From Erysipelotrichaceae bacterium (lineage in GTDB: Bacteria > Bacillota_I > Bacilli_A > Erysipelotrichales > Erysipelotrichaceae): a stretch of DNA of 45,512 nt. The stretch covers positions 1 through 45,512 of the forward strand of contig JAFULQ010000009.1 in the NCBI GenBank assembly GCA_017473265.1. Direction: 5' to 3'. Positions within the stretch are counted from its first letter, which is position 1. The number at the start of each line of letters is the position of its first letter. A program made the translations under genes and the position numbers. Under the pieces are notes generated by a model, which saw only the letters and a list, made by a program, of their open reading frames with translations, did no database searches and was not told the origin of the DNA. This document shows positions 2,772 through 37,338 of this stretch, in pieces.

Positions 2772-4691
2772 ATGGAAAATAAAGGCAAGTATTATATTAC
2801 GACAGCGATTGCATATACTTCAGGAAAACCACATATTGGGAATGTATATGAAATTGTATTAGCTGATGCTATTGCTCGTTATAAACGTGAAACAGGATAC
2901 GATGTTCGTTTCCAAACAGGTACTGATGAACATGGTCAAAAGATTGAAGAAAAAGCAAAAGCAGCTGGTAAAACTCCACAAGAATTTGTTGATGGTGTAG
3001 CAGCAGTTATCAAAGAACAATTTGATACAATGAATGTTTCTTATGATAAGTTCATGAGAACTACAGATCCTTATCATGAAGCACAAGTACAAAAAATGTT
3101 TAAGAAATTGTATGAACAAGGGGATATTTACAAATCTGAATATGAAGGTTGGTATTGTACACCATGTGAATCTTTCTATACAGAATCTCAATTAGTTGAT
3201 GGTAAATGCCCAGACTGTGGTAGAGATGTTCAAAAAGCAAAAGAAGAAGCATATTTCTTCAAGATGAGTAAATATGCTGATCGTTTAATGAAACATATCG
3301 AAGAAAATCCACATTTCATTCAACCAGAATCTCGTAAGAATGAAATGGTAAACAACTTCATTAAACCAGGTTTACAAGATTTATGTGTATCTCGTACATC
3401 ATTTAAATGGGGTATTCCTGTAGACTTTGATCCAAAACATGTTGTATATGTATGGATTGATGCTTTAACTAACTATATTACTGGTTTAGGATTTGATTTA
3501 GGTGGTAACCATGATGAATTATTCAATCATTATTGGCCAGCTGATGTACATCTAATTGGTAAAGATATTTTACGTTTCCACACAATTTATTGGCCAATCA
3601 TGTTGATGGCTTTAGGTGTAGAATTGCCAAAACAAGTATTTGGTCACCCATGGTTATTAGTTGGTGAAGGTAAGATGTCTAAATCTAAAGGTAATGTAAT
3701 TTATGCGGATGAATTAGTAAAATACTTTGGTAGAGATGCTGTTCGTTATATCATGTTACATGAAATGCCTTTTGCTCAAGATGGAACAGTTACTTATGAA
3801 TTAATGATTGAACGTATTAACTCAGATTTAGCTAATATTTTAGGTAACTTAGTAAATCGTACAATTAGTATGACAAATAAATACTTTGGTGGTGTAATTA
3901 CAAATCCACAAGTATCTGAAGAAGTAGATGCTGAATTAATTTCTATGGTTCAAGCATTACCTGCTAGAGTAGAAAAATGCATGAATGACTTAAAAGTACA
4001 AGATGCAATTGATGAAATCATTGCAGTATTACGTAGATGTAATAAATACATTGATGAAACAATGCCTTGGGCTTTAGCTAAAGATGAAGCTAAGAAAGAT
4101 CGTTTGGCTACAGTATTGTATAACTTATTAGAAGGTATTCGTATTGCGGCTATTATCTTACGTTCTTATTTACCAGAAACAGCAGAAAAGATTTTAGATC
4201 AAATTGGAACTCAACAAAGAGATATGGATTCAGCATTAACATTTGGTTCTTTAGAAACAGGTACCCATGTTATCGCAAAACCAGAAATCTTATTTGCTCG
4301 TATTGATGAAAAAGAAATGTTAGAAAAAATTGAAGCAGATAAAGAACCTAAGGTTGTAAAACCTGAAGGTAAACCAGAAATTACAATCGATGATTTTGCA
4401 AAAGTAGAATTACGTGTTGGTACAGTTGTTAAGTGTGAAAAACATCCTAAGGCTGATAAATTATTAGTATCTCAAATTGATTTAGGATATGAAACACGTC
4501 AAATTGTAAGTGGTATTGCTTCTCACTACAAACCAGAAGAAATGATTGGTAAAAAGGTAGTTGTTGTTGTGAACTTAAAACCTGCTAAATTGCGTGGTGT
4601 AGAATCTCAAGGTATGATTCTTGCTGGTGATGATGGCGAAAACTTAGGCTTATTAACAGTTGATTTACCAGATGGTACAGAAATCCACTAA
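2772..4691 (+). CDS. metG: Methionyl-tRNA synthetase
   Basis: A 639-residue class I aminoacyl-tRNA synthetase that charges tRNA-Met in the cytoplasm. The HIGH-like signature PHIGN is near residue 20, the KMSKS loop (GEGKMSKSKGN) near residue 301, and a zinc knuckle with cysteines (CTPCES...CPDCG) near 127-149. The C-terminal 100 residues form an EMAPII/Arc1p-like tRNA-binding OB domain (DFAKVELRVGTV...HPKADKLLVSQID), so this is the long bacterial form with the dimerising C-terminal domain. The start is supported by AAAGGAGG 8 bases upstream. The gene is controlled by the T-box leader just before it and ends in its own terminator, so it is probably monocistronic. Confidence 0.97.
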   Translation: MENKGKYYITTAIAYTSGKPHIGNVYEIVLADAIARYKRETGYDVRFQTGTDEHGQKIEEKAKAAGKTPQEFVDGVAAVIKEQFDTMNVSYDKFMRTTDPYHEAQVQKMFKKLYEQGDIYKSEYEGWYCTPCESFYTESQLVDGKCPDCGRDVQKAKEEAYFFKMSKYADRLMKHIEENPHFIQPESRKNEMVNNFIKPGLQDLCVSRTSFKWGIPVDFDPKHVVYVWIDALTNYITGLGFDLGGNHDELFNHYWPADVHLIGKDILRFHTIYWPIMLMALGVELPKQVFGHPWLLVGEGKMSKSKGNVIYADELVKYFGRDAVRYIMLHEMPFAQDGTVTYELMIERINSDLANILGNLVNRTISMTNKYFGGVITNPQVSEEVDAELISMVQALPARVEKCMNDLKVQDAIDEIIAVLRRCNKYIDETMPWALAKDEAKKDRLATVLYNLLEGIRIAAIILRSYLPETAEKILDQIGTQQRDMDSALTFGSLETGTHVIAKPEILFARIDEKEMLEKIEADKEPKVVKPEGKPEITIDDFAKVELRVGTVVKCEKHPKADKLLVSQIDLGYETRQIVSGIASHYKPEEMIGKKVVVVVNLKPAKLRGVESQGMILAGDDGENLGLLTVDLPDGTEIH

Positions 4692-16387: not shown

Positions 16388-16430
16388 AACCAAAGACTAT
16401 TCTAGTGATTCTAGAATAGTCTTTCTATTT
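16388..16430. terminator. Bidirectional terminator between convergent genes
   Basis: A 13- to 14-bp stem, AAAGACTATTCTAG / CTAGAATAGTCTTT (16392-16424), with a 5-base loop lies between the ceramidase-like gene and the Fic gene. T-rich stretches flank it on both sides, and it overlaps the Fic stop codon. Confidence 0.85.
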
Positions 16431-17497
16431 AGGATTGTGAATTCACTTAATGAGTATGTACGAATTCTTTGGTTTACAATATTTGGAATTGTGAATCCAT
16501 TGCTAGATAATTTGACACAACGGTTTGTGATTGTTTTATTAGTAACATTTAAACGCTTGCTTAGAGAAATTGGTGTAAATTCATAAAGATTATTTTGTAG
16601 AAGAAAAACAAGTAGTTGTTTTTCTTTAGTGTTCAAATATGATAGACTTCCAATTACATCGGATTCTTGAATTCCTTTTGAAATTTCGTATATTTTTTTT
16701 GCATATAATTCAACCATTCTTAAAAAGTAGCAAATCCATATTTCTGGATGTGGTGGATTTTCTCTTCCAAGATAATAAAGAGCAGGCAATCCCATTTGCA
16801 GTGATTGATAGTACTCATCAATGTCATATGAGAAATATTCTTCTAAAGAGCCGATTCCATTAAATCCAAAGCCATAATAATCTAAGATATATCCAGACAT
16901 AAGTCTTGCAGTTCTTCCATTTCCATCTTCAAATGGATGTATGGTAACTAATTGATAATGCACAATTGCTGCAATTATCAGTGGATGATCAGTGGTTGTA
17001 TTTACGTAATCTACAAGTTCATCTAGTAGTTGAGGGATTTCTGAATACTCTGGAGGTATATAATCAGGTCTTCCGGTAACTGAGTCATAAACTGCAAATA
17101 ATACTCCAGGAGGCATTGGCCCACGAAGACCTATTTTTTCTTTAGATGCTCCTTTTTCTACTAATGATTGTACTTCTAAAATCATTTCTTTAGAAAAGGG
17201 TTCTTTTTGTATGAGTTTATCTTCTAATAGGCTAAGGGCAAGAAAATAGTTGCGAATTTCTTGTTCTGGTTTTAAAAGGTGTCGATGATTATCCTTTTCA
17301 ATAGCTTCGTCAGATTGAGCTTCTGTAAGAGGGTTTCCTTCAATTTTGTTTGAGGCAAATGCACTTTTTTTCTTAGAATTTTTGCGCAAACGGTTTGTTT
17401 CTAGTAGAGGCAATTCGATAGTGTTTACTGAAAAACGAACTTTCTCAATAGTTAAAATACGATTTACAATTTCATTTGTCAATTTAACTTTTATCAT
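16397..17497 (-). CDS. Fic family protein with C-terminal winged helix
   Basis: 366 residues. The start at 17497 follows GGAGG by 7 bases; an upstream in-frame ATG is ignored. The Fic core motif HPFEDGNGRTAR is near residue 191, with all residues for AMP transfer from ATP to a protein hydroxyl. An N-terminal inhibitory helix motif of the S-x-x-x-E-G type, SNKIEGN, is near residue 50; its glutamate would block ATP, making this a self-inhibited class II Fic. The last 70 residues look like a winged helix-turn-helix (ISLSKRLNVTNKTITNRCVKL). Such stand-alone Fic-wHTH proteins are common in Firmicutes; targets are unknown. No FicT/antitoxin partner gene is adjacent. A promoter-proximal inverted repeat suggests autoregulation. 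Confidence 0.9.
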   Translation of the reverse strand: MIKVKLTNEIVNRILTIEKVRFSVNTIELPLLETNRLRKNSKKKSAFASNKIEGNPLTEAQSDEAIEKDNHRHLLKPEQEIRNYFLALSLLEDKLIQKEPFSKEMILEVQSLVEKGASKEKIGLRGPMPPGVLFAVYDSVTGRPDYIPPEYSEIPQLLDELVDYVNTTTDHPLIIAAIVHYQLVTIHPFEDGNGRTARLMSGYILDYYGFGFNGIGSLEEYFSYDIDEYYQSLQMGLPALYYLGRENPPHPEIWICYFLRMVELYAKKIYEISKGIQESDVIGSLSYLNTKEKQLLVFLLQNNLYEFTPISLSKRLNVTNKTITNRCVKLSSNGFTIPNIVNQRIRTYSLSEFTILNRKTILESLE

Positions 17498-17498
17498 A

Positions 17499-17530
17499 TG
17501 TATACCTCCGTATTTGGTATACATAGTATA
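17499..17530 (-). promoter_or_regulatory. Fic promoter -10 and overlapping inverted repeat (candidate operator)
   Basis: The minus-strand -10 box TATACT (17525-17530) is followed at once by an 8-bp inverted repeat, TGTATACC-N9-GGTATACA (17499-17523), covering the expected transcription start and the ribosome binding site. The Fic protein carries a winged helix, so binding to this site is a reasonable guess. Confidence 0.5.
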
Positions 17531-17562
17531 TTGCATAAAATAGATAAATTCTATGAAAATTT

Positions 17563-22071: not shown

Positions 22072-23679
22072 ATGGCAAAACTGAATATTAAGAAAATCTT
22101 GTTATGGTGTTATTTTATAATCAATTTTTGTTTTGTTTCCCTTTTTATTTATATGGGTGTTAATGAAGATGTTAATGTTTATAATCCTAGAAATATTGAA
22201 GGAGTCACTACTATTGAAAACTATAATGTAGATTATATTCATGATGATACGGCTCCGGCAAATATTCGCAAAGTATATAGTTGGACGATTGAAACATCTG
22301 AAATGACAGAAAAGTGTCTTCGTTTCTATACATCTCATCATTATGTAGATGTCTTTATTGATGGTGAATTGGTTTATAGTATTCATACAGATGAAGATAA
22401 TATGTTTGGTGATTCAATTAGTAGTGTTTGGACGAATGTGCATCTTTATCCAAAGGATGAGGGTAAAGAAATTCGAGTGATTTTAACTCCGGTGTATGAT
22501 TCGGTAATTAATAATTCAGTGGAATTTGTATATGGTACATTGTATGAAATGTTGTTACAAGAGTTGAAGGCTGAATTGATTGATATGTCGTTGGCTGTGT
22601 TGGCGATTATTGTTGGTGTTATTATTTTGGGTTATCATGTGTATGCATATTTCTCTAAGAATTTCAAAAATATTAATGCTCTATATTTGGGTATTGTGTC
22701 TATGATTCTTGGTGTTTGGAGACTTATGGATTTACGTTTTACTAGTATGTTGTTTGATAATTTCTTGGCTATGGGGTATGTAGCGAATGGATTACTGTTC
22801 TTAATCTGCCCACCAATTATTTTTCACTTTAAAACGGATTTAAAGGAAAAGGAAACAAAAGTTTTAGATTTTGTTTTATTTGTTTCTATCTCAGTTGCAG
22901 TATATGCATTTGGTTGTCAAGTATTGGGTATCGCTGATTTGCGTGCAAATTTGTATTTGACACATATTGTTATGATTTTAACGATTGTTGCGATTGTTTT
23001 AAATATCATTCAATATAAAGATTATTTTATTCGTAAAGATTTTATTCATCCAACATTGATTATGGTGATTTCTTTAACAGCAGGAACATTACTTGATTTA
23101 TTATTGTTCTATACAACAAATGATACAGTTGGTATGGTGTTTACTTTATCAGCATTCTTGTTACATGCGTTGTATCAATTCTATAACAATATTCGTGAAA
23201 TGAATTATAAAGCGAATGTGGATCCATTAACAGGATTGATGAATAAACGTAGATGGGAATCCTTGTTAAAGAGTACGAAGAGTGATAAACCAATTGGTAT
23301 TGTAGTTATTGATATTAATAACTTGAAATATATCAATGATACTTTTGGACATGAAGCTGGTGATGTTATTATTTATCGTCTTGCTCATATTATGAAGAGT
23401 ATTCTTCCACTTCACTGTCATGTTTGTCGATGGGGTGGAGATGAATTTGTAATCATGATGGAAGATTGTACACAAGAAACGATTGATAAATATGTGCACA
23501 ATATTCAAGCGGGTGTTGATACGTATAATCGGTTAAAGAAACCGCAAAGCATATCGTTTGCGACAGGTTCTGCAATAACATCAGAATTTAAAAAAATCAC
23601 ATTAAGTGAGTTGTTTAAAATTGCTGATGAACGCATGTTAGAGAATAAAAAAGAATGGAAATTACAGCAAAAGTCATAG
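22072..23679 (+). CDS. Membrane diguanylate cyclase (GGDEF) with extracellular sensor domain
   Basis: 535 residues; the start at 22072 uses AAAGGGTG, and the longer frame is rejected because it starts inside the terminator. A TM helix (residues 9-28) leads to an extracytoplasmic beta-rich domain of about 145 residues, then about seven TM helices (residues 175-370), a layout like the 7TMR-DISM receptors. The GGDEF domain starts near 390: DPLTGLMNKR, then DINNLKYINDTFGHEAGD and the complete active site RWGGDEF near residue 455. It should make c-di-GMP from two GTP. The product-inhibition I-site (RxxD five residues before GGDEF) is absent: that stretch reads LHCHVCR. It lies just downstream of the par operon and just upstream of a c-di-GMP riboswitch. 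Confidence 0.92.
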   Translation: MAKLNIKKILLWCYFIINFCFVSLFIYMGVNEDVNVYNPRNIEGVTTIENYNVDYIHDDTAPANIRKVYSWTIETSEMTEKCLRFYTSHHYVDVFIDGELVYSIHTDEDNMFGDSISSVWTNVHLYPKDEGKEIRVILTPVYDSVINNSVEFVYGTLYEMLLQELKAELIDMSLAVLAIIVGVIILGYHVYAYFSKNFKNINALYLGIVSMILGVWRLMDLRFTSMLFDNFLAMGYVANGLLFLICPPIIFHFKTDLKEKETKVLDFVLFVSISVAVYAFGCQVLGIADLRANLYLTHIVMILTIVAIVLNIIQYKDYFIRKDFIHPTLIMVISLTAGTLLDLLLFYTTNDTVGMVFTLSAFLLHALYQFYNNIREMNYKANVDPLTGLMNKRRWESLLKSTKSDKPIGIVVIDINNLKYINDTFGHEAGDVIIYRLAHIMKSILPLHCHVCRWGGDEFVIMMEDCTQETIDKYVHNIQAGVDTYNRLKKPQSISFATGSAITSEFKKITLSELFKIADERMLENKKEWKLQQKS

Positions 23680-23701
23680 TTAAAAACTATGACTTTTTTG
23701 T
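23671..23701 (+). terminator. Intrinsic terminator after the diguanylate cyclase gene
   Basis: An 11-bp perfect stem, AAGTCATAGTT/AACTATGACTT, with an AAA loop plus a T run, starting just before the stop codon. It isolates the cyclase transcript from the riboswitch unit. Confidence 0.9.
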
Positions 23702-23790
23702 TTTTTTATGCTAAAAAATTGTGAATATTTTAACTATAAAAAAAGTTCGATAAAAATGGATAATTTTACTAATTTTTTTAATTAATATTG

Positions 23791-23819
23791 TTGAAAAATA
23801 AGGATACAAGTGTTATAAA
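23791..23819 (+). promoter_or_regulatory. Promoter of the riboswitch-adhesin transcript
   Basis: TTGAAA (23791-23796), 17-base spacer, TATAAA (23814-23819). The expected start (about 23826) falls at the first bases of the aptamer. Confidence 0.7.
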
Positions 23820-23823
23820 TAAA

Positions 23824-23897
23824 GTGGGCAAACTTACCGAAAGGTAAGGACGCAAAGCTAGGTGTCTAAGCAATTTTGTATGATTGACCGGCTGCAA
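23824..23897 (+). promoter_or_regulatory. Class I cyclic di-GMP riboswitch (GEMM-I)
   Basis: The diagnostic core is present: GGGCAAAC, a stem ACTTACC-GAAA-GGTAAG capped by a GNRA tetraloop, then GACGCAAAGC, and downstream GACCGGCTGC closing the second helix. AGC..GGT (23855-23862) can pair with ACC.GCT (23887-23893). GEMM-I aptamers bind c-di-GMP between the two helices. The 3' strand of that helix (ACCGGC) is also the 5' arm of the terminator that follows, so the aptamer and terminator are mutually exclusive. This predicts an ON switch: c-di-GMP binding prevents termination and allows the giant surface protein gene to be transcribed. The ON direction is inferred from the overlap, not measured. 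Confidence 0.93.
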
Positions 23898-23925
23898 CAT
23901 TCTTTTTGTTGTGGCCGGTTTTTAT
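23887..23925 (+). terminator. Expression-platform terminator of the c-di-GMP riboswitch
   Basis: A 13-pair stem from ACCGGCTGCAACA to TGTTGTGGCCGGT (two G-T wobbles) with a 7-base loop is followed by TTTTTATATTTT. Its 5' arm overlaps the aptamer. Confidence 0.9.
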
Positions 23926-24063
23926 ATTTTCTGCCACAAAAAAAGGTAAAAAATATAAAAAAAATCAACACTTTTCATTAAAAAAAACGGTAAATTGAAA
24001 AGTGGTTTTTTGGCGATGTAAGAGATTTACATGTATTGGAATAATATGTGAGGAGGATATATT
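23926..24063 (+). promoter_or_regulatory. Leader between riboswitch terminator and giant adhesin start, with a second terminator-like hairpin
   Basis: About 140 untranslated bases. CACTTTTCA (23969-23977) pairs with TGAAAAGTG (23996-24004) over an A-rich loop and is followed by GTTTTTTGG, which looks like a second intrinsic terminator. A further small hairpin, ATGTAA-GAGAT-TTACAT (about 24015-24032), precedes the ribosome binding site GAGGAGG, which is 5-6 bases before the ATG. No second aptamer was recognised. Confidence 0.5.
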
Positions 24064-27000
24064 ATGAAAAAGGGTTTGATGAAGAAGTTATTAAAAGCAA
24101 CGTTAGCATTTTTGCTGGCTTTTAGCGTTGTAGAGACTAGTGCTTTTACAAGAGTAAGTGCTTTAGAAAAAGAACACTATACAAAGGTATCGGATCCAAA
24201 TACTATGGATACATGGAAACAATACTTTGAAAGTGTTGTTAACGTAAATAATCAACTTGTTACATCAACTGGGCAAGCTGGATATATTTGGAGTGATAAG
24301 ACAGTATTATCTTCAAAAGATGATTTAACTTCTTCTGACTCTGTTTTAAATAAGCTTACTTGGGATGAAGAAAACTTTTTAGTATCTTTATCTGCTTTAT
24401 CAGCAAATAGTGAAGTTGTGGGTTATTCTACAATTCCTACTGATACTATGATTGTTTTAGACTTATCTAATAGTATGACCGAAGATGCGATGTATGCAAT
24501 GGTAGAAGCTGTTAATAAGGCGATTGATTCATTACTTACATTAAATAAATACAATCGTGTAGGAGTTGCTGTATATGATACGGATGCAAGTGTTTTATTA
24601 CCGCTTGATTCATATACAACAACAAAAGTGAATAATAATGGTACTCCTGGTGATACAAGTGATGATTATCTTGTATATTTAGAGCTTGATGATTTTGAAA
24701 AAGATGGAACTAAAAATACAGGAGATCTTCGAGTAGCCCATGGAAATTCGTCACATCAAGTTACTGTTACTGTTGATTATTCAGGTGTTGATTGGAATGA
24801 ATTAAATGATGCAATAAGGAATGCTAACAGTTATAATCGGGATGATAGACTTGAAGAAAGATTGAGTCCATATATTCCTAGTGCTGTAAGCATTGACTGG
24901 TCAGATGTATATAATAACAAACCAGAATACAATATTAATAATATGACTGCGGAGAAATGGAAAACGTACATTGAGACAAATTATAGTTCTTTTACAGTAG
25001 ATACATATAGTGTGGTAAAGAATAGTAAAGATGAGTATGTAATTTCTAGTGTTGAAGTTGGTGGCGGAACTTACATGCAATATGGTATGTGGAATGCTTG
25101 GAATGAATTTAAAGCTGTAACGGATACAACAATTACGGATGGAATTTTAGCTGGAACTGTTCGTATGCCTGTTATGGTATTGATGAGTGATGGTGCTCCT
25201 ACATACAACACTACTTATTATAATGCAGTTACTAGCACATATAATTCTGGTAATGGATCAAACGTTAATAATCGCAATGGATTCCTTACTCAGTTAACTG
25301 GGGCGTGGATTAAGAAAAATATGGCCAATCATTATGGTCGAGATGGATTATTCTATACATTGGGACTTGATGTTGCTGATAATGATGTCGCGACCAGTGT
25401 ATTAAATCCTTCAGCTTCAAATGATACGATTGATGGTTATTGGGAAACATTCTTGAAAGCAAAAGACGGCGATAATGTAATTATTCGAGAAGGCCAAAAT
25501 AATAGCGTTACAGTTATAAAAGACGCGACTATTACTTCACAAGACTTTGTTAATCAATATTACCCTGCAAAAAATGCAACAGGTTTAATCAGTGCGTTCG
25601 CAAGTATTGTAAATCAAATTATTTTACAATCTAAATATTATCCAACAAAGTTAGAACAAGCAGAAGTTAACATGAGTGGATATATGAATTTTGTTGATGA
25701 ACTTGGTGAATATATGGAAGTTAAATCAATTAAAGGTATCGCTAGTGGAGAAGGAGATGCTCGCAAATTGTATACAGGTGATGAATTTGCGCAGGCTTTC
25801 ATTGCAGATGATATTTTTGGTGATATTTCTTCTGGTAATTTAAATAATTTAAATGAAGACGGTCAATTAATGATTAAAGTTATTATGAAGCGTTTGGGTG
25901 TAAATGAAGAGCATGCAAAGGTTGCATTATCTAATGCAATTACAACTGGTCAAATTAGTTATACGAGCGCTACAGAATATAGCAATTATATTGGTTGGTA
26001 TGCTGATGCTGATGGAGATTTTATTGGTGTATGGGATGGCAATGAAAATGCAACACGTCCAGAAAAAGCTGTGTCTTATGTTAAAGATTATGGTTTCTTT
26101 GGCGATGTTGGTAGTGCTGAGACATTTGACTTATCTAATATGAGTTATATTGTTGCTAGAGTAGCTACTAATATTGAAACTAAGCAGCAAACAGTAAATT
26201 GGGCTGTTCCTGCTTCATTAGTACCTGTTATAACGTATTCTGTTGCTTTCGAAGGTATGTCATATGATGAAGCTCAAAATCCAACTATGGAGATTAATCA
26301 TAAATTGCCAATTTGTTTTACATATGAAGTTGGTTTGCGCTCAGATATTAATGAATATAACATATCTGCTTTAGTGGATGATGCTTTCTTAAATGAAGAT
26401 GGTACATACTCATTCTATACAAATATGTTTAATCGTAATGCGGATAGTTCTAGTAATCCAAACACTCATAATACAACGACCGTAGACTTCAAACCATCAG
26501 AAGAAAATGCTCGTTATTACTATATTGCTGATACATTAGTATTAGATGATAATCACGAAATGGTTTCTAAAGATGATTTCTCTAGTAGCGGAACATATTA
26601 TCGCAAAGTGGTAGCGTTTAATAAAAATGCAAATGATGGTACTGTCCAAATGGTTAACTACTATTCGCCATTATCTAAAGAAGTATTACCAAAAGTAAAA
26701 TTCAACGATGATGGCTATGCATATGTTCCTAAGGGAACAGCGTTCAGTAACATTACAGACAATGAAACTGAAAAATCATCAAATAATACAGGAACATTAG
26801 ATTATTTTAATCGCCCTGTAATGACAATTATTAACAATGAACAACAAGCAGTGAATTATTTGGGTAACAACGGTAAAATTGTAGTAACTCCACAACAAGG
26901 TTTACTATTATATAAAGAGATTGAAGGATTAACTGCTGGTAGTGAAACATTCCAATTTACTATTGAAATTCAAAAAGCAGATAAGACACCATTTAGTGGT

Positions 27001-30000
27001 ACATTAAGATTGAAGGATACTAATAAAGGGGATGTTCAGGAAGTAAATATAACAAATGGAAAATTAGAATTATCATTAAAAAATGGTAATGGTGTTTATA
27101 TTGTTGATTTACCAACTGATGCAACATATTCTATTACAGAAGCCAATCATCCTGATTATATGCTAAAAACAGTATCAGTGAATGATGTTGTAACTGGTAA
27201 TATTGCTCAAGGCACAATTAAGAATAAGAAGATTGATAATGTAGTGTTTACAAACGCAGTTAAAGTTCCTACATTATTAGTATCAAAAGAAGTTGAATAT
27301 CCATTTGAACTTGTAAATAGTCAAGTGGATAACCATGAATTTACTGTTTTAGTAGATTTAGGTGCGAATTATAGTAATAAAGAAGTAACTGTATGGGGTT
27401 CTGATGAAACTTATACTGCTAATGCAAACGGTGTAGTTACATTAACATTAAAAGATGGCGAATCTGTAATGTTAAATGTTGCTAAAAATGATACTTATAC
27501 AATTACAGAAACAAATTTACCAGCAGGATATACGATGAATGCTGATAAGAGTGTTAATTTACAAGGTACAATTATTACAAATGATAATATTGCGAAGGTT
27601 GTTAATACATATGCACCTACAAGTGTAAAACCTACAAATGTTACAATTGATGGTACAAAAGGATTAACTGGACGTGAATGGTTAGATACAGATTCATTTA
27701 CATTTATTTTGCAATATTTGAATGGAAATAATTGGGAAACGATGGCAACTGTAGATGCGGATAAAGATGTAGCTACTTTAGCTGATAAGACAGTCACATT
27801 TACAAATACAATTAGAAATGTTGAATATACGCAAGTTGGAGAATATCGTTATAGAGTAATCGAGGTAAATGGTGGTTCATTGATTCAAGGTATTACTTAT
27901 GATTCAACTGTTCATACATTTACAATTAAGGTTACAGATAATGACTTAGATGGTCAATTAGAAGTTTCGTCAGTAACTAGTGAAACAACGACTGTAACAA
28001 CTAATGAAAACACGTTTGCTGTGAGTATGAGTTTTGCTAATACATATGCTGCTTCAGGTAGTGCAACAGCAACTATTGAAATTCAAAAAGAGATTACAAA
28101 CTATGCAGATACAGACCTTTCTTTAGAAGGATATCAGTTTGTATTAAAAGATTTGTTGGGTAATGTTGTTGCAGAATCAACAGTAACAACAAATGAAGGA
28201 ACTGCTAAAATCGTTTTAGAATTAGATATTAGTATGTTAGGTAGTCACCAATACAAATTAAGTGAAATTGTGCCAACTACTACTGTAGATGGTATGGTAT
28301 ATGACTCTACTGTTTATGACATTAATGTTAATGTTGTAGATAAGTTAGATGGTACAATTGGCGCTATATTATCAGTTGACGGGGTAACAACAAATGGAAA
28401 TGAAGCTAATGTTTCATTCAATAATGTTTATGATGAAGAAACACAAGTATTTACAGGTAATAAAGTATTAAGTGGTCGTGATTGGAAAGATGGCGATACA
28501 TTTAGCTTTGAATTATATGAAACTGCTTCTGATTTTGATGAAACAGCGGTTGGCGCTTCAAAATTAGGTACAGAAGTAGTTACTTTTGCGGATGCTAGTA
28601 AAGCATTTACATTTGATGAAATTACATACAAGAATGTGGGAACACATTATTATGTAATTAAAGAAGTTGCTGGTACAATTGGTGGTATTACTTATGATAC
28701 ACAAGAATATCGTGCAACAGTTACATTAACTAGAGATGATAATAATCAATTAGTTAAGACAGTAACATTTGTTGATGGTGAGGTAGAGTTCACAAATACA
28801 TATGAAGCGGCAGATACAACAGCTGAAGCTATCGTAGGAACAAAGACAATGTCTGGTAGAAATATGAGTGCTGGTGAATTCACATTCAATTTATACCAAA
28901 CAGGATCAAATTATAGTATTGAAGGATTAACTCCAGTACAAACAAAACAAAATGTAGCTGGTCAAAATGGAGAAGAAACTAACTTCGCATTTGATACAGT
29001 TAAGTATGATGAAGCTGGAACATATTATTATGTAGTAACTGAAACAAAGGGAACAGCTGGTGGAGTAACATACGATGCTCGTACATATAGAGTAAATGTA
29101 GTTGTAGTTGATAACTTAGATGGAACAATGACAGCTACAGTGAATTATGTAGATGGTGCGGTAGAGTTTACAAATACATATAAAGCATCAGAAACATCTA
29201 TTGAATTAGGTGGTACTAAGACAATGGATGGCAGAGATATGACTGCTGGTGAATTTACATTCAATTTATTCGCAGTTGATGCAGAAGGTAATGTGGCTAC
29301 TACTCCATTGGATACAGTAACGAATGTTGCGGCATTAAATGGTGTAGAAACAAGCTTCAAGTTTGAAGAACAAACATATACACAAGCTGGTACTTACGTT
29401 TATGCAATTACAGAAACAAAGGGAACAGCTGGTGGCGTTACTTATGATGAAACTACATATCTTGTAACAGTTACTGTTACAGATAACAATAAAGGATCAT
29501 TAGTTGCAGAAGTTACATCGATTACTGATGCACAAAAAGTAACAAAGAATAGTGTTGCTTTCTTAAATACATATAAAACTAGTGATACCGAACTAGTGAT
29601 TAAGGGTACTAAGAGATTAAATGGTAGAGATATGAATGCAAATGAATTTACATTCAATCTTTATACAACTAATGAATCTTATGGTATTGATGGATTAAAA
29701 CCTATTCAAACTGTAACAAATGTTGCTGGGGCGAATGGTGAAGAAACTACATTTGCATTTGCTAGTGTTCCATTTAAAGAAGTTGGTGAATACTATTATG
29801 TAGTAACTGAAGAAAAAGGTACTTTGGGTGGTATCACATATGATCAAACAAAGTATGATATTAAAGTTGTTGTTAAGGATAATTTAAATGGTACATTAAC
29901 GGCTAGTGTTGTTAGTGTTAATGGAAAAGAAGCTGGTAAAGTAGCGTTTGTAAATACATATAAAGCTAATGTTAATGCAAGTGTTGTATTAGATGCTCAA

Positions 30001-33000
30001 AAGGATTTACAAGGTCGTGATTGGAAGGATTCTGATCAATTTACATTTGAATTATATACAGCAGATGAAAATTATAACGTAGTAGAAAATGCTGAGGCGT
30101 TTAAAACTTTAACTGTTACTGATGAAACAGTTAAGGCATTTGAAGAAATTACATATGATACTGTTGGTACATATTATTATGTAATGAAAGAAACATACGG
30201 TGGACAAAGAATTAATGGTATTTCTTACTCTACTGAAGTTTATAAGATTGAAGTTACTGTTACTGATAACTATAATGGTACATTAAGTGCTGCTACAGTA
30301 ATTAAAAACAGTAATGATGAAGTAGTTTCTCAAGAAGTGTTTGTTAATACATATACAACTGATTCTGTAACTACAGAAAGAATTAAGGGTACTAAGACTT
30401 TAGTTGGTAGAGATATGAGTGCTAATGAATTTACATTCAATCTATACGAAACTGATGAAACATTTGCTATTCCTTCTAATGCTGTTGCTTATGACACAGT
30501 GAAAAATGAAGCAAGTGCAAATGGTGTTGCGGATGCATTTACATTTAAGTCAATGACATTCGATAAAGTTGGTACATATTATTACGCAGTGGTTGAAGAA
30601 CAAACTGAAATTGCTGGTGTAACAATGGATACGACTAAGTTCATTGTAACAATTAAAGTTGCTGATGATACAAATGGTAAATTATATGTGAAAGAACTAT
30701 TGGTAAATGGTAGTGCTGAAAACAAGATTGCATTTGTGAATAAGTATTCTATTGACCCAACTCCATTTGAATTTGGTGGTTATAAAACATTAAGAGGTCG
30801 TAAACTTGCAGCTGAAGAATTTACATTTAACTTATATGAAAGTGATGTAACTTTCACAAACCGTAATTTTGTTACTTCTGTTAATAATACAGAAGATGGT
30901 TCATTCATGTTTACAGGTTTAGAAAAAGCGGTTGGAACTTACTATTATGTAGTAGAAGAAGCTGCTGGAACAGTTGGTGGTGTTACTTATGATGCAACAC
31001 ATTATCATGTAACTGTTGAAGTTGTAGATAATGGTGTTGGTGGTACAACAGCAAATGTTAAAGAAATTCTAAAGGTTACTAAAAATGAAGAAGGTACAGT
31101 TATTGCTGGTTCTAATGTGATTTCATTTGTAAATAAATATGTTCCAGTTGATAACGATGGTATTGTTATTGGCGGTAATAAGACATTGACAGGACGTCAT
31201 ACAATTGATGGTGAATTTACTTTCGAATTATATGAAGCAGATGAAAACTATACAATTGCAGAAGGTGCTACACCAATTCGTACAGTCAATGAAGCTAATA
31301 CATTTGCATTTGAAGAAGTATATTTTAACAAAGTTGGTAATTACTACTTTGTAGTTAAAGAATTAGATAAGAATGCTGGTGGTATGGCTTATGATACAGC
31401 ATCATTCAATGTACATGTTGCAGTGACTGATGATGGTAAAGGTGAATTACATGCGGCTATCGTATCAATTAATGGTAATGAAAATGGTACGATTACATTT
31501 AACAATACATACACAATTGAAGATAAAGAAGAACTTGTGATTTCTGGTGTTAAGGAATTTACAGGTCGTGAATGGACAGATGAAGATGTATTTACATTTG
31601 AATTGTATGAAACAAATGATGAATATGAAGTAAGTGGTGCTACATTATTAGAAACTAAGACTGCTACTAAGGGTAATGTAAACTTCAGCTTTAGTAAGTT
31701 AGTTTATAAGAGTGAAGAAACTCATTACTATGTAGTAAGAGAAGTTGCTGGTGCTACTGATAATGGTATTACTTATGATACAAAACAATATCAAATTAAA
31801 GTTGTTGTTACAGATAATCATGATGGTACATTAACAATGAACCATAAAACGGTTGTTGCTGGTACTGAAGTAACGAATATTAAGTTTGTGAATACATATG
31901 AAGTATTTGATAACTCTGCAGCTTATGTTGATATTGTAGCAACGAAGGCTTTAACTGGTCGTCCGTTGAAGAATGCAGAATTTACATTCGAATTATATGA
32001 AGCTGTATATGATGAAACTACTGGTAAATATACTAAGGGTACATTAGTTGAAACAGTGAAGAATGCAAATACTGAAGTGAAGTTCACAAGAATTAAGTAT
32101 ACTGAAGAAGGTACACATCACTATATTGTTAAAGAACAAGCTGGTGATTCTACAATTGGTATTACTTATGATTCTAATGAATATCCTGTAACTGTAGTTG
32201 TTTATGATGATGGAAATGGACGTTTAGCTGTTAATAAGACAGTTAATGGTGAAGTTGGATCTATCACAATTAACAATACATATACAGTTACTCCAGATGA
32301 ATTTAAGTTATCTGGTACAAAGACATTGACTGGTCGTGATATGGAAGCTAATGAGTTCGTGTTTGATTTATATCAAGCGACTGATGCTACATTTGCAAAT
32401 CGTACACTAGTTCAATCTGTTAAGAATAATGCTGCAGGTGAATTTGAATTTGTAGGATTATCTGAACAACCTGGTACTTACTATTATGTAATTGAAGAAC
32501 AACAAGGTTCTAAGGGTGGGGTAACATATGATGCATCTCACTACCATGTTGTAGTAACAATCGTTGATAATGGTAACGGTACTACTGAAGTTTCTTCTAC
32601 TACTTATACAAAAGTGGTTGAAGAAGATGGTAAGACATCTACACAAGAAGTAAATAGCGTAGTCTTTAATAATACTTATGTACCTACTGATTCTACTGGA
32701 TTAGTATTGGGTGGTAATAAGGCATTAGCTGGACGCCATACAATTGATGGTGAATTTACATTTGAATTGTATAAGACTGGTGCTGATTTTGAACTTGTTG
32801 AAGGTGTTGCTCCAATTCAAACAGTAAATGAAGATGATAAGTTTGAATTTAAGCCATTAACATATCCTACAACTGGTACTCATTATTATGTAATTAAAGA
32901 GTTAGATAAGAATGCTGGTGGTATGACATACGATACAGCAACTTATAGAATTACTGTTGAAGTTACTGATGACTTGAATGGTGAATTAGTTGCTGAAGTT

Positions 33001-36000
33001 GTATCTATGACAGATGCTGATGGTAAAGCTGTTGAAAAAGTAACATTTAATAACTCTTATGAAATTGAAAAACCAATTACTGTTATTGTTAATGGTAATA
33101 AAGTATTAACTGGTCGTGAATGGTTAGATTCTGATGAATTTACATTCGAGTTATATGAAGCAAATTCTAATTATGAAGTTAGTGAAGGTGCTACACCATT
33201 AGATACACAAACAGCTACTAAGGGTAATACAGCATTTGTATTTGATGAATTCACATATGATGCAGAAGAAACTCATTACTATGTAGTTAAAGAAGTAGTT
33301 GGTACTTTAGGTGGCGTTACATATGATACAACAGTATTTAATGTAAAAGTTGTGGTTACAGATAATCATGATGGTACATTATCTGTTGAAAAGACATACT
33401 ATGTTGGTAACTCAAAAGTTAACAATATTGAGTTTGTTAATACATATGAAGTGTTAGATTCTTCTAAGGCTTATGCGACAATTAGAGGTACTAAGTCTTT
33501 AACTGGTCGTGTATTAGCTAACGGTGAATTTGAATTTGAATTATATGGAGCTATTTATGATGAGGAAACTGAAGAATATGTTTCTACAGAGTTGCTTGAA
33601 ACAGTTAAGAATACTGCTACAGCATTTACATTCTCTGCTATGGAATATAGTGAAGTTGGAACTCATTATTATGTAGTAAAAGAAAAAGCTGGTGAATTAG
33701 GCGGAGTTACATATGATGAAACTGTATATGTAATTGAAGTAACAATCACTGATGGTTATGATGGAAAATTATATTCTTCAGTAGATATTATCAATAGTGA
33801 AGCAACTGTAGTTGCATTCAATAATACATATACTATTTATCCGGATACATTCTCATTTGAAGCAGTTAAGACATTAACTGGTCGTGAAATGACTGAAGGT
33901 GAATTTAGTTTCGAATTATATGAAACAAATAGTTCTTATAAAGATGCTAAATTAATTCAAACAATTAAGAATGACAAAGATGGTAAAGTTGAATTTGCTG
34001 GATTGTCTAAATATCCTGGAACTTACTACTATGTAATTAAAGAAGTAGCTGGTTCTAAGGGTGGTGTATCTTATGATTCATCATACTATCAAGTGAAGAT
34101 TGTGATTGTAGATGAAGGTAATGGTACAACGAAGATTGAAAATACAACAATTACAAAAGTTTCTATTACTGAAGATGGTGCGGTTGGTGAACCTGCTGAT
34201 AAAGTATTGTTTGCTAATACGTACACACCAACAGATAGTGATGGTATCGTAATTGAAGGTGCTAAGAATCTTACTGGTCGTCATATGATCAATGGTGAAT
34301 TTACATTTGAATTATATGATGCTGATGGCAACTTAAAACAAACAGTTGTTAATAAAGACGGTAAGTTCGCATTTAAAGAATTGTTCTTTGATGAAGTAGG
34401 TACATATACTTATGTAGTTAAGGAAAAAGATTTAGGTGCTGGTGGTATGAGTTATGATTCTAAGGAAATTGAAGTTGTAATTAAAGTTACTGATGATTTA
34501 AATGGTGAATTAGATGCAACAATCGTTTCTATTAATGGATCTGCTGATACAGCAATTGAATTCAATAATACGTATGAAATTACTAAACCTAATTCAACAA
34601 TTATTGAAGGATATAAGACATTCACTGGTCGTGAATGGACTGAAGATGATGTATTTACATTTGAATTATATGAAGCTAATGCTGATTATGAAGTTGCTGA
34701 AGGTGCTAAACCATTAGATACACAAAAAGCTACTAAAGATAATGTAACATTTGCATTTGATGAAATTACATATGATGCAGAAGATACTCATTATTATGTA
34801 GTTAAAGAAGTTGTTGGTGATACAACTGTTGGTATTACATATGATACTAGTGTATATAACGTAAAAGTTGTAGTTACTGATAATCATGATGGTACATTAA
34901 GTGTTGCTCAAACAGTGACTAAGAATAATACAGTTGTTGAAGATATTGAGTTTGTAAATACATATGAAGTGTATGAAGGTGCGTATGCTCAAGCTACAAT
35001 TTCTGGTATTAAGACATTGACAACTCGTCCAATTAAGGATGCTGAGTTTACATTTGATTTATATCAAACAGGTAGTGATTTCGCTATTATTGAAGGATCT
35101 ACTCCAATTCAAACTGTAAATGATGGTGTAACATTCACATTTGAAACTATTAAATATGATAAGATTGGTACTTATTATTATGTAGTTAAAGAAATGAATG
35201 CTGGTGAAACACTAAATGGTGTAACTTATGATGAAAGAGAACATAAAGTTCAAGTTGATGTTACTGATGGTGGTAAAGGATACTTAGTATCTAAAGTTAC
35301 AGTTGTTGGTAAAGAAGATAATACTTTAGTTGTAGATAACAAGTATACAATTACTCCTACTGAGTTCTCTCTAGATGTTAATAAAGTATTAACTGGTAGA
35401 GATATGAACGATGGAGAATTTACTTTCGAATTATATGAAAGTGATGCTACATTTGCTAATACAACATTTGTAATGTCTACTACAAATGATGCTGAAGGTA
35501 ATGCTACATTTGAAGGATTGGCTAAACAACCTGGTACATATTACTATGTAATCAGTGAAAAAGCTGGTTCTAAGGGTGGTGTAACATACGATGCTGCTAA
35601 GTATCAAGTAACAGTAACTGTTGCGGATAATGAACTTGGTGGAACAGTTGTTACGAATACAAGTTATGTAAAAGTAACTGCTGATGGTGCAGAAAAAGTA
35701 GAAAACGTTGTATTCAATAATAAATATGAACCTAAAGATACTGATGGAATCGTTCTTGGTGGCATTAAGTTATTAACAGGACGTCAATTAGTAAATGGTG
35801 AATTCGTATTTGAATTATTCGATAAAGATGGTGAATTATTACTTCAAACAACAGTTAATAAAGATGGTAGATTTGAATTTACACCATTAACATTTGAAGA
35901 AACTGGAACATATGTTTATACAATCAAGGAAAGAAATAACGGAATTGGTGGTATTACATATGACCCAACAGTATTCAAAGTAACTATTGAAGTAGAAGAT

Positions 36001-37338
36001 GACTTGAATGGTGAATTGGTTGCTAAGGTATCTGAAATTAAAGCATCTGGATCTAAAGTTGATGCAATGATTTTCGAAAATACATATAAAGCAGAACCAA
36101 TTAAGAATGTAATCAATGGTATTAAAGTACTAACTGGTCGTGATTGGTTAGAAACTGATGAATTCACATTTGAATTATATGAAACTGAAAGTGATTTCGA
36201 AATTAGTGGTGAAGCTATTGATACAGCTATTGCTACTAAGGAACATCAAGAATTCACATTTGATGAAATTACATATGATAAACAAGGTGAATACTATTAT
36301 GTAGTTAAAGAAGTAGCTGGTACTATTGGTGGTGTTACATATGATGTAAGACTATACAATGTAAAAGTTACAGTTACTGACATGTTAGATGGAACATTCA
36401 CATTGAAACAAGAAGTTGTTGTTGATGATGAAGTTGCTGATATGATTGAGTTTGTTAACCCATATAGTGCTAAGGGTACTGGATTAACATTATTTGCTCA
36501 AAAAGAAATTGAAGGTAGAGACTTAGTTGAAAAAGAATTCGTATTTGACTTATTTGAAGCAAGTGCTGAATTTGTAATCAATGGTGCTGCTATTCAATCT
36601 AAAGAAAATGCTATTGATGGTAAGGTAGTATTTGATGAATTAGCATTCGAAGAAGTTGGTACATACTACTACGTAATTGCTGAAAAAGCCGGCAATGCTG
36701 GTGGTGTTACTTATGATGATACTAAGTACTTTGTAACAATTTCTGTTACTGATGATTTAGCTGGTAACTTGGTTGCTGAAATCGCAAGTATTACAACTAA
36801 CAAGTCTAAAGAAGCTGTTGAAGATGTAATGTTCAATAATACATATGCTCCTGCTAAAACGGTAGATGGTATTGTATTAACTGCTAAGAAAGTCTTCAAT
36901 GGTAGAGAATTAGTTGAAGGTCAATTTACATTCAACTTATTCGAAACAGATAAGTCATTTAATGTAGATGCTGTTGCATTACAAACTGCTGTAAATGACG
37001 CATTAGGAAATGTTACATTTGCCGAAATGAACTACGACAAAGTTGGAAGTTACTACTATGTAATTACTGAAGAAATTGGTAATGAAGAAAACATTATCTA
37101 TGATACAGCTAGATACATGGTTGAAGTTCAAGTAACTGATGACAAACTTGGTCAATTACATGCTGAAGTAGTAAGCATCACTAAAGAAGGTGAAAATGCT
37201 GAAGAAGTTGTATTTGAAAATACATATTTCGTAAATACAGCGGATACTACAACTGCTAATGGTTGGTTAGCAAGTATGTTTGTAAGTGTGATCGCATTGA
37301 TCGTGGCTGTTGGTAAGAAAAGAAAATTATCAAAATAG
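24064..37338 (+). CDS. Giant surface adhesin: vWA domain plus about 25 isopeptide (Spy0128/FctA-type) domains
   Basis: 4,424 residues. A signal peptide (about residues 1-36, basic start then LLKATLAFLLAFSVVETSAF) leads to a von Willebrand A domain at about 125-515 with the MIDAS start DLSNSM (near 133) and VMVLMSDGAPTY (near 373). Two CnaB-like domains span about 955-1185 (each ends near a TITE motif). About 25 domains of about 128 residues follow, matching the streptococcal pilin isopeptide linker family: K-x-L-T-G-R, E-F-x-F-x-L-Y, G-T-Y-Y-Y-V-V-K-E, GGVTYD, V-x-V-T-D, F-x-N-T-Y. The Lys, Glu and Asn that form the internal isopeptide bond are kept in all repeats I read. The end is a membrane helix (WLASMFVSVIALIVAVG) and basic tail KKRKLSK with no LPXTG before it. 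It is inferred to be a rigid, protease-resistant fibre with a ligand-binding tip at the N-terminus, expressed under c-di-GMP control. Confidence 0.93.
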   Translation: MKKGLMKKLLKATLAFLLAFSVVETSAFTRVSALEKEHYTKVSDPNTMDTWKQYFESVVNVNNQLVTSTGQAGYIWSDKTVLSSKDDLTSSDSVLNKLTWDEENFLVSLSALSANSEVVGYSTIPTDTMIVLDLSNSMTEDAMYAMVEAVNKAIDSLLTLNKYNRVGVAVYDTDASVLLPLDSYTTTKVNNNGTPGDTSDDYLVYLELDDFEKDGTKNTGDLRVAHGNSSHQVTVTVDYSGVDWNELNDAIRNANSYNRDDRLEERLSPYIPSAVSIDWSDVYNNKPEYNINNMTAEKWKTYIETNYSSFTVDTYSVVKNSKDEYVISSVEVGGGTYMQYGMWNAWNEFKAVTDTTITDGILAGTVRMPVMVLMSDGAPTYNTTYYNAVTSTYNSGNGSNVNNRNGFLTQLTGAWIKKNMANHYGRDGLFYTLGLDVADNDVATSVLNPSASNDTIDGYWETFLKAKDGDNVIIREGQNNSVTVIKDATITSQDFVNQYYPAKNATGLISAFASIVNQIILQSKYYPTKLEQAEVNMSGYMNFVDELGEYMEVKSIKGIASGEGDARKLYTGDEFAQAFIADDIFGDISSGNLNNLNEDGQLMIKVIMKRLGVNEEHAKVALSNAITTGQISYTSATEYSNYIGWYADADGDFIGVWDGNENATRPEKAVSYVKDYGFFGDVGSAETFDLSNMSYIVARVATNIETKQQTVNWAVPASLVPVITYSVAFEGMSYDEAQNPTMEINHKLPICFTYEVGLRSDINEYNISALVDDAFLNEDGTYSFYTNMFNRNADSSSNPNTHNTTTVDFKPSEENARYYYIADTLVLDDNHEMVSKDDFSSSGTYYRKVVAFNKNANDGTVQMVNYYSPLSKEVLPKVKFNDDGYAYVPKGTAFSNITDNETEKSSNNTGTLDYFNRPVMTIINNEQQAVNYLGNNGKIVVTPQQGLLLYKEIEGLTAGSETFQFTIEIQKADKTPFSGTLRLKDTNKGDVQEVNITNGKLELSLKNGNGVYIVDLPTDATYSITEANHPDYMLKTVSVNDVVTGNIAQGTIKNKKIDNVVFTNAVKVPTLLVSKEVEYPFELVNSQVDNHEFTVLVDLGANYSNKEVTVWGSDETYTANANGVVTLTLKDGESVMLNVAKNDTYTITETNLPAGYTMNADKSVNLQGTIITNDNIAKVVNTYAPTSVKPTNVTIDGTKGLTGREWLDTDSFTFILQYLNGNNWETMATVDADKDVATLADKTVTFTNTIRNVEYTQVGEYRYRVIEVNGGSLIQGITYDSTVHTFTIKVTDNDLDGQLEVSSVTSETTTVTTNENTFAVSMSFANTYAASGSATATIEIQKEITNYADTDLSLEGYQFVLKDLLGNVVAESTVTTNEGTAKIVLELDISMLGSHQYKLSEIVPTTTVDGMVYDSTVYDINVNVVDKLDGTIGAILSVDGVTTNGNEANVSFNNVYDEETQVFTGNKVLSGRDWKDGDTFSFELYETASDFDETAVGASKLGTEVVTFADASKAFTFDEITYKNVGTHYYVIKEVAGTIGGITYDTQEYRATVTLTRDDNNQLVKTVTFVDGEVEFTNTYEAADTTAEAIVGTKTMSGRNMSAGEFTFNLYQTGSNYSIEGLTPVQTKQNVAGQNGEETNFAFDTVKYDEAGTYYYVVTETKGTAGGVTYDARTYRVNVVVVDNLDGTMTATVNYVDGAVEFTNTYKASETSIELGGTKTMDGRDMTAGEFTFNLFAVDAEGNVATTPLDTVTNVAALNGVETSFKFEEQTYTQAGTYVYAITETKGTAGGVTYDETTYLVTVTVTDNNKGSLVAEVTSITDAQKVTKNSVAFLNTYKTSDTELVIKGTKRLNGRDMNANEFTFNLYTTNESYGIDGLKPIQTVTNVAGANGEETTFAFASVPFKEVGEYYYVVTEEKGTLGGITYDQTKYDIKVVVKDNLNGTLTASVVSVNGKEAGKVAFVNTYKANVNASVVLDAQKDLQGRDWKDSDQFTFELYTADENYNVVENAEAFKTLTVTDETVKAFEEITYDTVGTYYYVMKETYGGQRINGISYSTEVYKIEVTVTDNYNGTLSAATVIKNSNDEVVSQEVFVNTYTTDSVTTERIKGTKTLVGRDMSANEFTFNLYETDETFAIPSNAVAYDTVKNEASANGVADAFTFKSMTFDKVGTYYYAVVEEQTEIAGVTMDTTKFIVTIKVADDTNGKLYVKELLVNGSAENKIAFVNKYSIDPTPFEFGGYKTLRGRKLAAEEFTFNLYESDVTFTNRNFVTSVNNTEDGSFMFTGLEKAVGTYYYVVEEAAGTVGGVTYDATHYHVTVEVVDNGVGGTTANVKEILKVTKNEEGTVIAGSNVISFVNKYVPVDNDGIVIGGNKTLTGRHTIDGEFTFELYEADENYTIAEGATPIRTVNEANTFAFEEVYFNKVGNYYFVVKELDKNAGGMAYDTASFNVHVAVTDDGKGELHAAIVSINGNENGTITFNNTYTIEDKEELVISGVKEFTGREWTDEDVFTFELYETNDEYEVSGATLLETKTATKGNVNFSFSKLVYKSEETHYYVVREVAGATDNGITYDTKQYQIKVVVTDNHDGTLTMNHKTVVAGTEVTNIKFVNTYEVFDNSAAYVDIVATKALTGRPLKNAEFTFELYEAVYDETTGKYTKGTLVETVKNANTEVKFTRIKYTEEGTHHYIVKEQAGDSTIGITYDSNEYPVTVVVYDDGNGRLAVNKTVNGEVGSITINNTYTVTPDEFKLSGTKTLTGRDMEANEFVFDLYQATDATFANRTLVQSVKNNAAGEFEFVGLSEQPGTYYYVIEEQQGSKGGVTYDASHYHVVVTIVDNGNGTTEVSSTTYTKVVEEDGKTSTQEVNSVVFNNTYVPTDSTGLVLGGNKALAGRHTIDGEFTFELYKTGADFELVEGVAPIQTVNEDDKFEFKPLTYPTTGTHYYVIKELDKNAGGMTYDTATYRITVEVTDDLNGELVAEVVSMTDADGKAVEKVTFNNSYEIEKPITVIVNGNKVLTGREWLDSDEFTFELYEANSNYEVSEGATPLDTQTATKGNTAFVFDEFTYDAEETHYYVVKEVVGTLGGVTYDTTVFNVKVVVTDNHDGTLSVEKTYYVGNSKVNNIEFVNTYEVLDSSKAYATIRGTKSLTGRVLANGEFEFELYGAIYDEETEEYVSTELLETVKNTATAFTFSAMEYSEVGTHYYVVKEKAGELGGVTYDETVYVIEVTITDGYDGKLYSSVDIINSEATVVAFNNTYTIYPDTFSFEAVKTLTGREMTEGEFSFELYETNSSYKDAKLIQTIKNDKDGKVEFAGLSKYPGTYYYVIKEVAGSKGGVSYDSSYYQVKIVIVDEGNGTTKIENTTITKVSITEDGAVGEPADKVLFANTYTPTDSDGIVIEGAKNLTGRHMINGEFTFELYDADGNLKQTVVNKDGKFAFKELFFDEVGTYTYVVKEKDLGAGGMSYDSKEIEVVIKVTDDLNGELDATIVSINGSADTAIEFNNTYEITKPNSTIIEGYKTFTGREWTEDDVFTFELYEANADYEVAEGAKPLDTQKATKDNVTFAFDEITYDAEDTHYYVVKEVVGDTTVGITYDTSVYNVKVVVTDNHDGTLSVAQTVTKNNTVVEDIEFVNTYEVYEGAYAQATISGIKTLTTRPIKDAEFTFDLYQTGSDFAIIEGSTPIQTVNDGVTFTFETIKYDKIGTYYYVVKEMNAGETLNGVTYDEREHKVQVDVTDGGKGYLVSKVTVVGKEDNTLVVDNKYTITPTEFSLDVNKVLTGRDMNDGEFTFELYESDATFANTTFVMSTTNDAEGNATFEGLAKQPGTYYYVISEKAGSKGGVTYDAAKYQVTVTVADNELGGTVVTNTSYVKVTADGAEKVENVVFNNKYEPKDTDGIVLGGIKLLTGRQLVNGEFVFELFDKDGELLLQTTVNKDGRFEFTPLTFEETGTYVYTIKERNNGIGGITYDPTVFKVTIEVEDDLNGELVAKVSEIKASGSKVDAMIFENTYKAEPIKNVINGIKVLTGRDWLETDEFTFELYETESDFEISGEAIDTAIATKEHQEFTFDEITYDKQGEYYYVVKEVAGTIGGVTYDVRLYNVKVTVTDMLDGTFTLKQEVVVDDEVADMIEFVNPYSAKGTGLTLFAQKEIEGRDLVEKEFVFDLFEASAEFVINGAAIQSKENAIDGKVVFDELAFEEVGTYYYVIAEKAGNAGGVTYDDTKYFVTISVTDDLAGNLVAEIASITTNKSKEAVEDVMFNNTYAPAKTVDGIVLTAKKVFNGRELVEGQFTFNLFETDKSFNVDAVALQTAVNDALGNVTFAEMNYDKVGSYYYVITEEIGNEENIIYDTARYMVEVQVTDDKLGQLHAEVVSITKEGENAEEVVFENTYFVNTADTTTANGWLASMFVSVIALIVAVGKKRKLSK
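27640..37227 (+). repeat. Array of about 25 Spy0128-type domain repeats within the giant adhesin
   Basis: Twenty-four repeats keep a G-R or related pair after the bonding lysine (examples: GTKTLTGRDM, GNKVLTGREW, GTKTMSGRNM). One, the second, lacks it (IQKEITNYADTDLSLEGYQF) but keeps Lys, Glu and Asn. The mean period is about 128 residues (384 bases). Copies differ at protein and DNA level, so this is an old, diversified array rather than a recent expansion. Confidence 0.9.
30751..36870 (+). repeat. Four-domain super-repeat (A-B-C-D), about 1.5 kb per unit, four units
   Basis: Equivalent points (the first hydrophobic residue of the A domain) fall at 30766, 32302, 33850, 35365 and 36871, giving units of 1536, 1548, 1515 and 1506 bases. 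A domains start after '(I/V)(D/T/Y)P' and carry PGTYYYVI plus a 'Y-x-K-V' late strand. B domains start DGIV(I/L)GG and have GRH/GRQ and G(I/A)GG(M/I). C domains have GREW(T/L)-(E/D)-(D/E). D domains have R(P/V)-(L/I)-K/A. The D domain of the fourth unit is divergent. Confidence 0.8.

Follow-up and report, generated by a model that had tools for sequence, protein, structure and literature searches.

In a typical c-di-GMP network, enzymes and receptors are so numerous that it is difficult to assign a given output to one particular enzyme. The closest described counterpart of the locus reported here is Bc2 of Bacillus thuringiensis, a class I c-di-GMP riboswitch ahead of the collagen adhesion protein gene cap; in vitro termination and tests in vivo established it as an ON switch (PMC4933901). 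Another class I switch of this species, Bc1, has a chemotaxis-receptor gene under its control; it possesses two terminators and shows hardly any response to c-di-GMP in vivo (PMC11218506). In C. difficile, which has 18 confirmed or putative cyclases and 17 phosphodiesterases, the ON-controlled adhesins stand under class II switches and the functional class I switches are OFF (PMC6200980, PMC6366702). On the protein side, the giant adhesin of Mobiluncus mulieris, with its isopeptide and ester domains, carries an LPxTG motif and a thioester head (PMC10619420).

Like Bc2/cap (PMC4933901), the locus analyzed here has a surface-adhesin gene whose leader combines a class I aptamer with an intrinsic terminator. 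It differs in that the only detected cyclase lies directly upstream, the adhesin is a giant FctA protein, no sortase was found and the direction of the switch is predicted. In Bc1, too, the class I aptamer is joined by two terminators, one after the other, but the second hairpin is much weaker in our locus. As in C. difficile, where riboswitches govern adhesins and surface proteins and several of the adhesins are turned ON by c-di-GMP (PMC6200980, PMC6366702), the output is a surface protein; in contrast, a class I element serves the predicted ON switch here, with one cyclase and no detected phosphodiesterase. The window, the whole stretch of 45,512 nucleotides that was analyzed, comes from a gut bacterium of the family Erysipelotrichaceae, whose genome (1.80 Mb, 29 contigs) is 95% complete. 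The features of the locus, in coordinates of the window, are as follows.

22072 to 23679, plus strand: predicted membrane-bound GGDEF diguanylate cyclase, 535 aa (Pfam GGDEF, 101.8 bits)
23669 to 23697, plus strand: intrinsic terminator T1 behind the cyclase gene, bidirectional-looking (terminator scan)
23791 to 23819, plus strand: promoter-like TTGAAA, 17 nt and extended -10 TGT-TATAAA, which would start transcription at the aptamer (sequence)
23817 to 23899, plus strand: class I c-di-GMP riboswitch aptamer, GEMM-I (Rfam RF01051)
23886 to 23926, plus strand: intrinsic terminator T2, the expression platform, with 14 pairs (7 G-C) at 23886-23920 and then a U-run
23969 to 24011, plus strand: second hairpin T3, with 9 bp, an 18-nt loop and -9.3 kcal/mol, then a U-run (sequence, folding)
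24050 to 24056, plus strand: ribosome-binding site GAGGAGG (sequence)
24064 to 37338, plus strand: giant surface protein of 4,424 aa, a 13.3-kb open reading frame (Pfam, NCBIfam)
24445 to 24627, plus strand: best vWA stretch of the adhesin head, aa 128-188, with DLSNS, a MIDAS-type DxSxS motif (domain match, sequence)
27625 to 37227, plus strand: stalk of 25 FctA/Spy0128 domains, aa 1188-4388 (domain matches, repeat alignment)

The cyclase gene lies directly downstream of rsmG-noc-parA-parB. Its GGDEF signature is intact (RWGGDEF, and also IDINNLKYIND), and the protein would be expected to make c-di-GMP. An earlier note on this DNA had described a complete GGDEF protein with its own terminator, and the domain match and T1 agree with that description. 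A structure model built from 5 sequences (mean pLDDT 64) yielded the topology and the GGDEF fold: one TM helix, a beta-rich outer domain (about aa 50-156), a multi-TM region and a C-terminal GGDEF domain (aa 381-528). In fold comparison, the modelled GGDEF domain matched PleD and other cyclases, and no structural match was found for the outer domain. The sequence has no inhibitory RxxD I-site ahead of GGDEF. The outer-domain and multi-TM half also occurs, at about 30% identity, on histidine-kinase-like proteins (G192, G213; L097 6867-8657 and L098 8610-10364), which fits a sensor module.

The leader behind the cyclase contains a full-length match to RF01051 (model positions 1-87, E 3e-12, best of its clan), whose score of 71.7 bits against a gathering threshold of 35 is the outcome of the covariance search that the earlier note had proposed. 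It is the same element that the note had placed at about 23824-23897. The GGC, GACGCAAAGC and 3' GC motifs equal the consensus, and the aptamer is therefore expected, on sequence grounds, to bind c-di-GMP. When the Rfam structure was mapped onto the leader, P3 was formed by pairing of 23856-23863 with 23887-23893 and of 23864-23866 with 23882-23884. All seven bases of the P3 3' strand at 23887-23893 (ACCGGCU) also lie inside the 5' arm of T2, GACCGGCUGCAACA, so that the overlap of ACCGGC with an aptamer helix that had been pointed out earlier is exact. Terminator-like sites are enriched in the 2.3-kb region (5, compared with 0.6 +/- 0.8 in shuffles).

The T2 and aptamer folds are mutually exclusive, as in a transcriptional ON riboswitch. 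For the RNA from 23820 to 23925, the terminator fold is the free minimum at -37.6 kcal/mol, compared with -26.3 kcal/mol when the aptamer is enforced. Since T2 is about 11 kcal/mol more stable without ligand, OFF would be the default state; since T2 and P3 use the same seven bases, the riboswitch is predicted to be a transcriptional ON switch, with read-through rising with ligand. The shared bases and the two folding energies thus lend support to the earlier expectation that ligand should favour read-through. Nevertheless, that expectation cannot be generalized to Clostridia, because class I switches there are not generally ON: the functional ones of C. difficile act OFF (PMC6366702, PMC6200980). 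The same precedent would argue for an OFF switch in our leader, but such a switch requires an anti-terminator that is lost once ligand occupies the aptamer, whereas here the 5' arm of T2 is itself the P3 strand, and we consider an OFF switch so improbable that it deserves hardly any weight. Most likely, the c-di-GMP-sensing RNA switches on the 4,424-residue surface adhesin.

Between T2 and the adhesin start lies T3, which the earlier note did not mention. It is A-U rich, is built on the inverted repeat CACTTTTCA..TGAAAAGTG and is weaker than T2; it may act as a weak terminator, or perhaps as a binding site for a protein. If T3 stopped most of the transcripts that pass T2, c-di-GMP alone would have a weak effect and a second factor would be needed. 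T3 may blunt the response in this way and hold transcription off even with ligand, by analogy with Bc1, whose two terminators leave it hardly responsive to c-di-GMP (PMC11218506), and the 88% identity of T3 at the adhesin locus of a second species (L032) speaks for a function of this kind. However, its A-U richness, its 18-nt loop and a stability of just -9.3 kcal/mol speak against this, and T3 is missing ahead of the second target in that species (L033). We regard a damped or decoupled switch as quite unlikely.

The promoter-like sequence is another feature beyond the earlier note. Our promoter pattern scan omitted 23791-23819 owing to its T-at-position-6 rule. The sequence is conserved at both loci of the second species (L032, L033) as TTGAAN-17-TGGTATATA. 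Its position just upstream of the aptamer and its retention at two related loci suggest that the leader is probably transcribed independently of the cyclase.

The gene behind the leader encodes a protein with a signal-peptide-like N-terminus, a vWA head, DUF7601 domains, 25 FctA/Spy0128 domains, a C-terminal TM segment and a basic tail, in keeping with the 13.3-kb surface protein gene that had been noted before. In Spy0128, an isopeptide bond links Lys to Asn next to a catalytic acid. The 25 stretches of our protein match the FctA/Spy0128 isopeptide domain (PF12892, TIGR03786) and carry the Lys/Glu/Asn triad: in the alignment, Lys is present in 24 of the 24 repeats covering the position, and Glu and Asn are each present in 25 of 25. 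The repeats also match Spy0128 (PDB 3b2m) and T-antigen pilin sequences in the PDB. Repeats that stand four or eight domains apart are the most alike (46% identity, compared with 37-39%), which reveals a four-domain super-repeat with DNA spacings of 1509-1551 bp; from these two observations, the stalk probably grew by copying of four-domain blocks. An AlphaFold model of the adhesin head was set aside, its mean pLDDT being 36.

The Mobiluncus adhesin and ours are each a single chain in which many self-crosslinked Ig-like domains follow an adhesion head, with the crosslinks predicted from residues in our case; in contrast to it, our protein has a vWA head and lacks LPxTG, and no sortase was detected. 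Spy0128 pilins (PDB 3b2m) differ in being sortase-polymerised. The C-terminus (37250-37338) reads FVNTADTTTANGW, a TM segment and KKRKLSK, with FVNTAD at the place expected for LPXTG. A search of four genomes of the genus gave no sortase (PF04203) match, and G004 gave seven. With no LPXTG and no sortase match, both a sortase-anchored LPXTG protein and a sortase-built pilus were rejected. Other adhesins of the genus end in a similar way, with FV(N/D)TAD or LPVTAD, then a TM segment and a basic tail, at L095 (gene ending at 3934), L091 (3160-6726, minus strand) and L092 (7809-11063, minus strand). As none of the four genomes gave a sortase match, the motif would be a relic or an unusual sorting signal.

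Genome-wide, the GGDEF family search gave one match, the gene at 22072-23679, and the RF01051 search gave one aptamer, that at 23817-23899; the two lie 138 bp apart. Every "only" for the cyclase and the aptamer is provisional, as it covers those families that were searched, in a genome of 29 contigs that is 95% complete. The chance that a random leader falls directly behind a given gene is about 1 in 1,700, a rough estimate that assumes about one gene per kb. All 25 FctA matches of the genome lie in the adhesin gene. The EAL (PF00563) and HD-GYP (PF13487) phosphodiesterases and the PilZ receptor gave no match in the source genome and did give matches in control genomes; with no EAL or HD-GYP match, the genome does not show a complete c-di-GMP signalling system. 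The class II riboswitch (RF01786) gave no match in the source genome and likewise none in the control genomes. The finding of a single GGDEF match and a single aptamer, which the earlier note did not have, together with the confinement of FctA to this gene, strengthens its picture of a self-contained circuit. Because the cyclase and the class I aptamer are the only ones detected, the cyclase is the likely source of the ligand whatever the gene order.

The same order, parB-cyclase-aptamer-adhesin, was found at L032 of a second species of the genus (G003, the MAG Erysipelotrichaceae bacterium RGIG7674 from water-buffalo rectum), so that the gene-order comparison that had been proposed favours the linkage. 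This genome likewise has one GGDEF match, in a cyclase 91% identical to ours, and its adhesin, whose gene is truncated by a contig end, is about 50% identical across the first 1,600 residues. The gene content from the S1-like gene to rsmG is different at L032. G003 contains a second class I aptamer on another contig (L033 844-926), with the same overlapping terminator; the gene that follows it encodes a large surface protein distinct from the adhesin, in which SpaA and FctA domains occur, and no cyclase lies on this short contig. T2 is 98% identical at L032 and 95% at L033, and identity of the spacers at these two loci is 79% and 51% upstream and 65% and 60% downstream (most flanking stretches, 38-79%). 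A c-di-GMP circuit at this locus is supported by a T2 that stayed near-identical while its flanks diverged, by a promoter-like sequence kept at all three loci and by the order kept in G003.

Two further genomes of the genus were searched. G002 has neither a GGDEF match nor an aptamer; its adhesin homologue (45-54% identical) lies elsewhere in the genome, in a locus without an aptamer match. G001 has 12 GGDEF matches, no aptamer and no homologue of the source cyclase at E 1e-20. In this small sample, the pattern in G001, G002 and G003 suggests that the aptamer travels with this cyclase and not with GGDEF genes generally. Outside the genus, the linkage is rare: a GGDEF gene lies within 400 bp at 2 of the 18 riboswitch loci examined (L036, L049). 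A comparison of expression platforms across relatives, for which a crude terminator finder was used, hints that the exact P3/terminator overlap is not general; outside the genus the overlap calls of this finder are unreliable.

The earlier proposal that the cyclase feeds its own adhesin switch is favoured by the single GGDEF match and aptamer and by the order in G003, although exclusivity does not hold in G003, where L033 is a second switch. The L033 aptamer, standing away from any cyclase, and the mostly unlinked riboswitches and cyclases elsewhere in the family would also fit a working switch that is not privately fed, in which adjacency behind parB is incidental and the cyclase also serves unrecognised receptors, possibly of families outside those searched. 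However, PilZ gave no match in the source genome, and the order was kept in two species while the adhesins diverged to about 50% identity; we judge incidental adjacency unlikely. We propose that the locus is probably a minimal, physically linked c-di-GMP attachment circuit. A stronger version is that the whole c-di-GMP system of the organism consists of a single cyclase, a single RNA sensor and a single giant adhesin, adjoining one another, with no protein receptor or dedicated phosphodiesterase, c-di-GMP being the private signal of a single gene that is cleared by dilution or by a non-specific hydrolase; we offer this version tentatively, as a possibility that we somewhat doubt.

In the proposed circuit, the membrane cyclase would use its extracytoplasmic domain and multi-TM region to sense an outside cue, and would make c-di-GMP. 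The adhesin gene would have a promoter of its own, with transcription beginning just upstream of the aptamer. While c-di-GMP is low, T2 would form in the nascent RNA and transcription would stop; at high c-di-GMP, the bound aptamer would keep the P3 3' strand, block T2 and allow read-through into the 13.3-kb adhesin gene. The adhesin would then present its vWA head on the 25-domain stalk, each domain having the residues needed for a Lys-Asn isopeptide bond within it. Both the attachment role of the adhesin and the in vivo direction of the switch are deduced from the sequence.

The type of switch is already known; what is unusual is the minimal, self-contained layout. In the papers searched, we found no description of a single cyclase linked to a riboswitch or of a c-di-GMP riboswitch module in Erysipelotrichaceae, which is weak evidence, and none of a locus that joins the sole detected cyclase and the sole detected aptamer of a genome to an adhesin of this kind. 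If the circuit is real, its single detected enzyme, with a single RNA sensor and a single target, would provide a clean model for surface attachment set by c-di-GMP in Gram-positive gut bacteria. It would also test whether a riboswitch alone can serve as the only c-di-GMP receptor of a cell, and it would give an example, from outside Bacillus, of an adhesin under a class I ON switch.

Several minor observations were made along the way. At L036 (6864-13666), the only class I aptamer of genome G015 lies between a GGDEF-containing gene and an EAL-like-looking gene, where it may switch c-di-GMP metabolism itself. Other genera of this family have two to three class I aptamers in tandem ahead of secreted CAP-like or large surface proteins (L035, L048, L040, L047, L050). 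Elsewhere in the window, a Fic/DOC-family gene (16397-17536) adjoins an SIS-domain gene, and a T-box leader (2542-2735, 109.5 bits) lies upstream of the open reading frame at 2772-4691.
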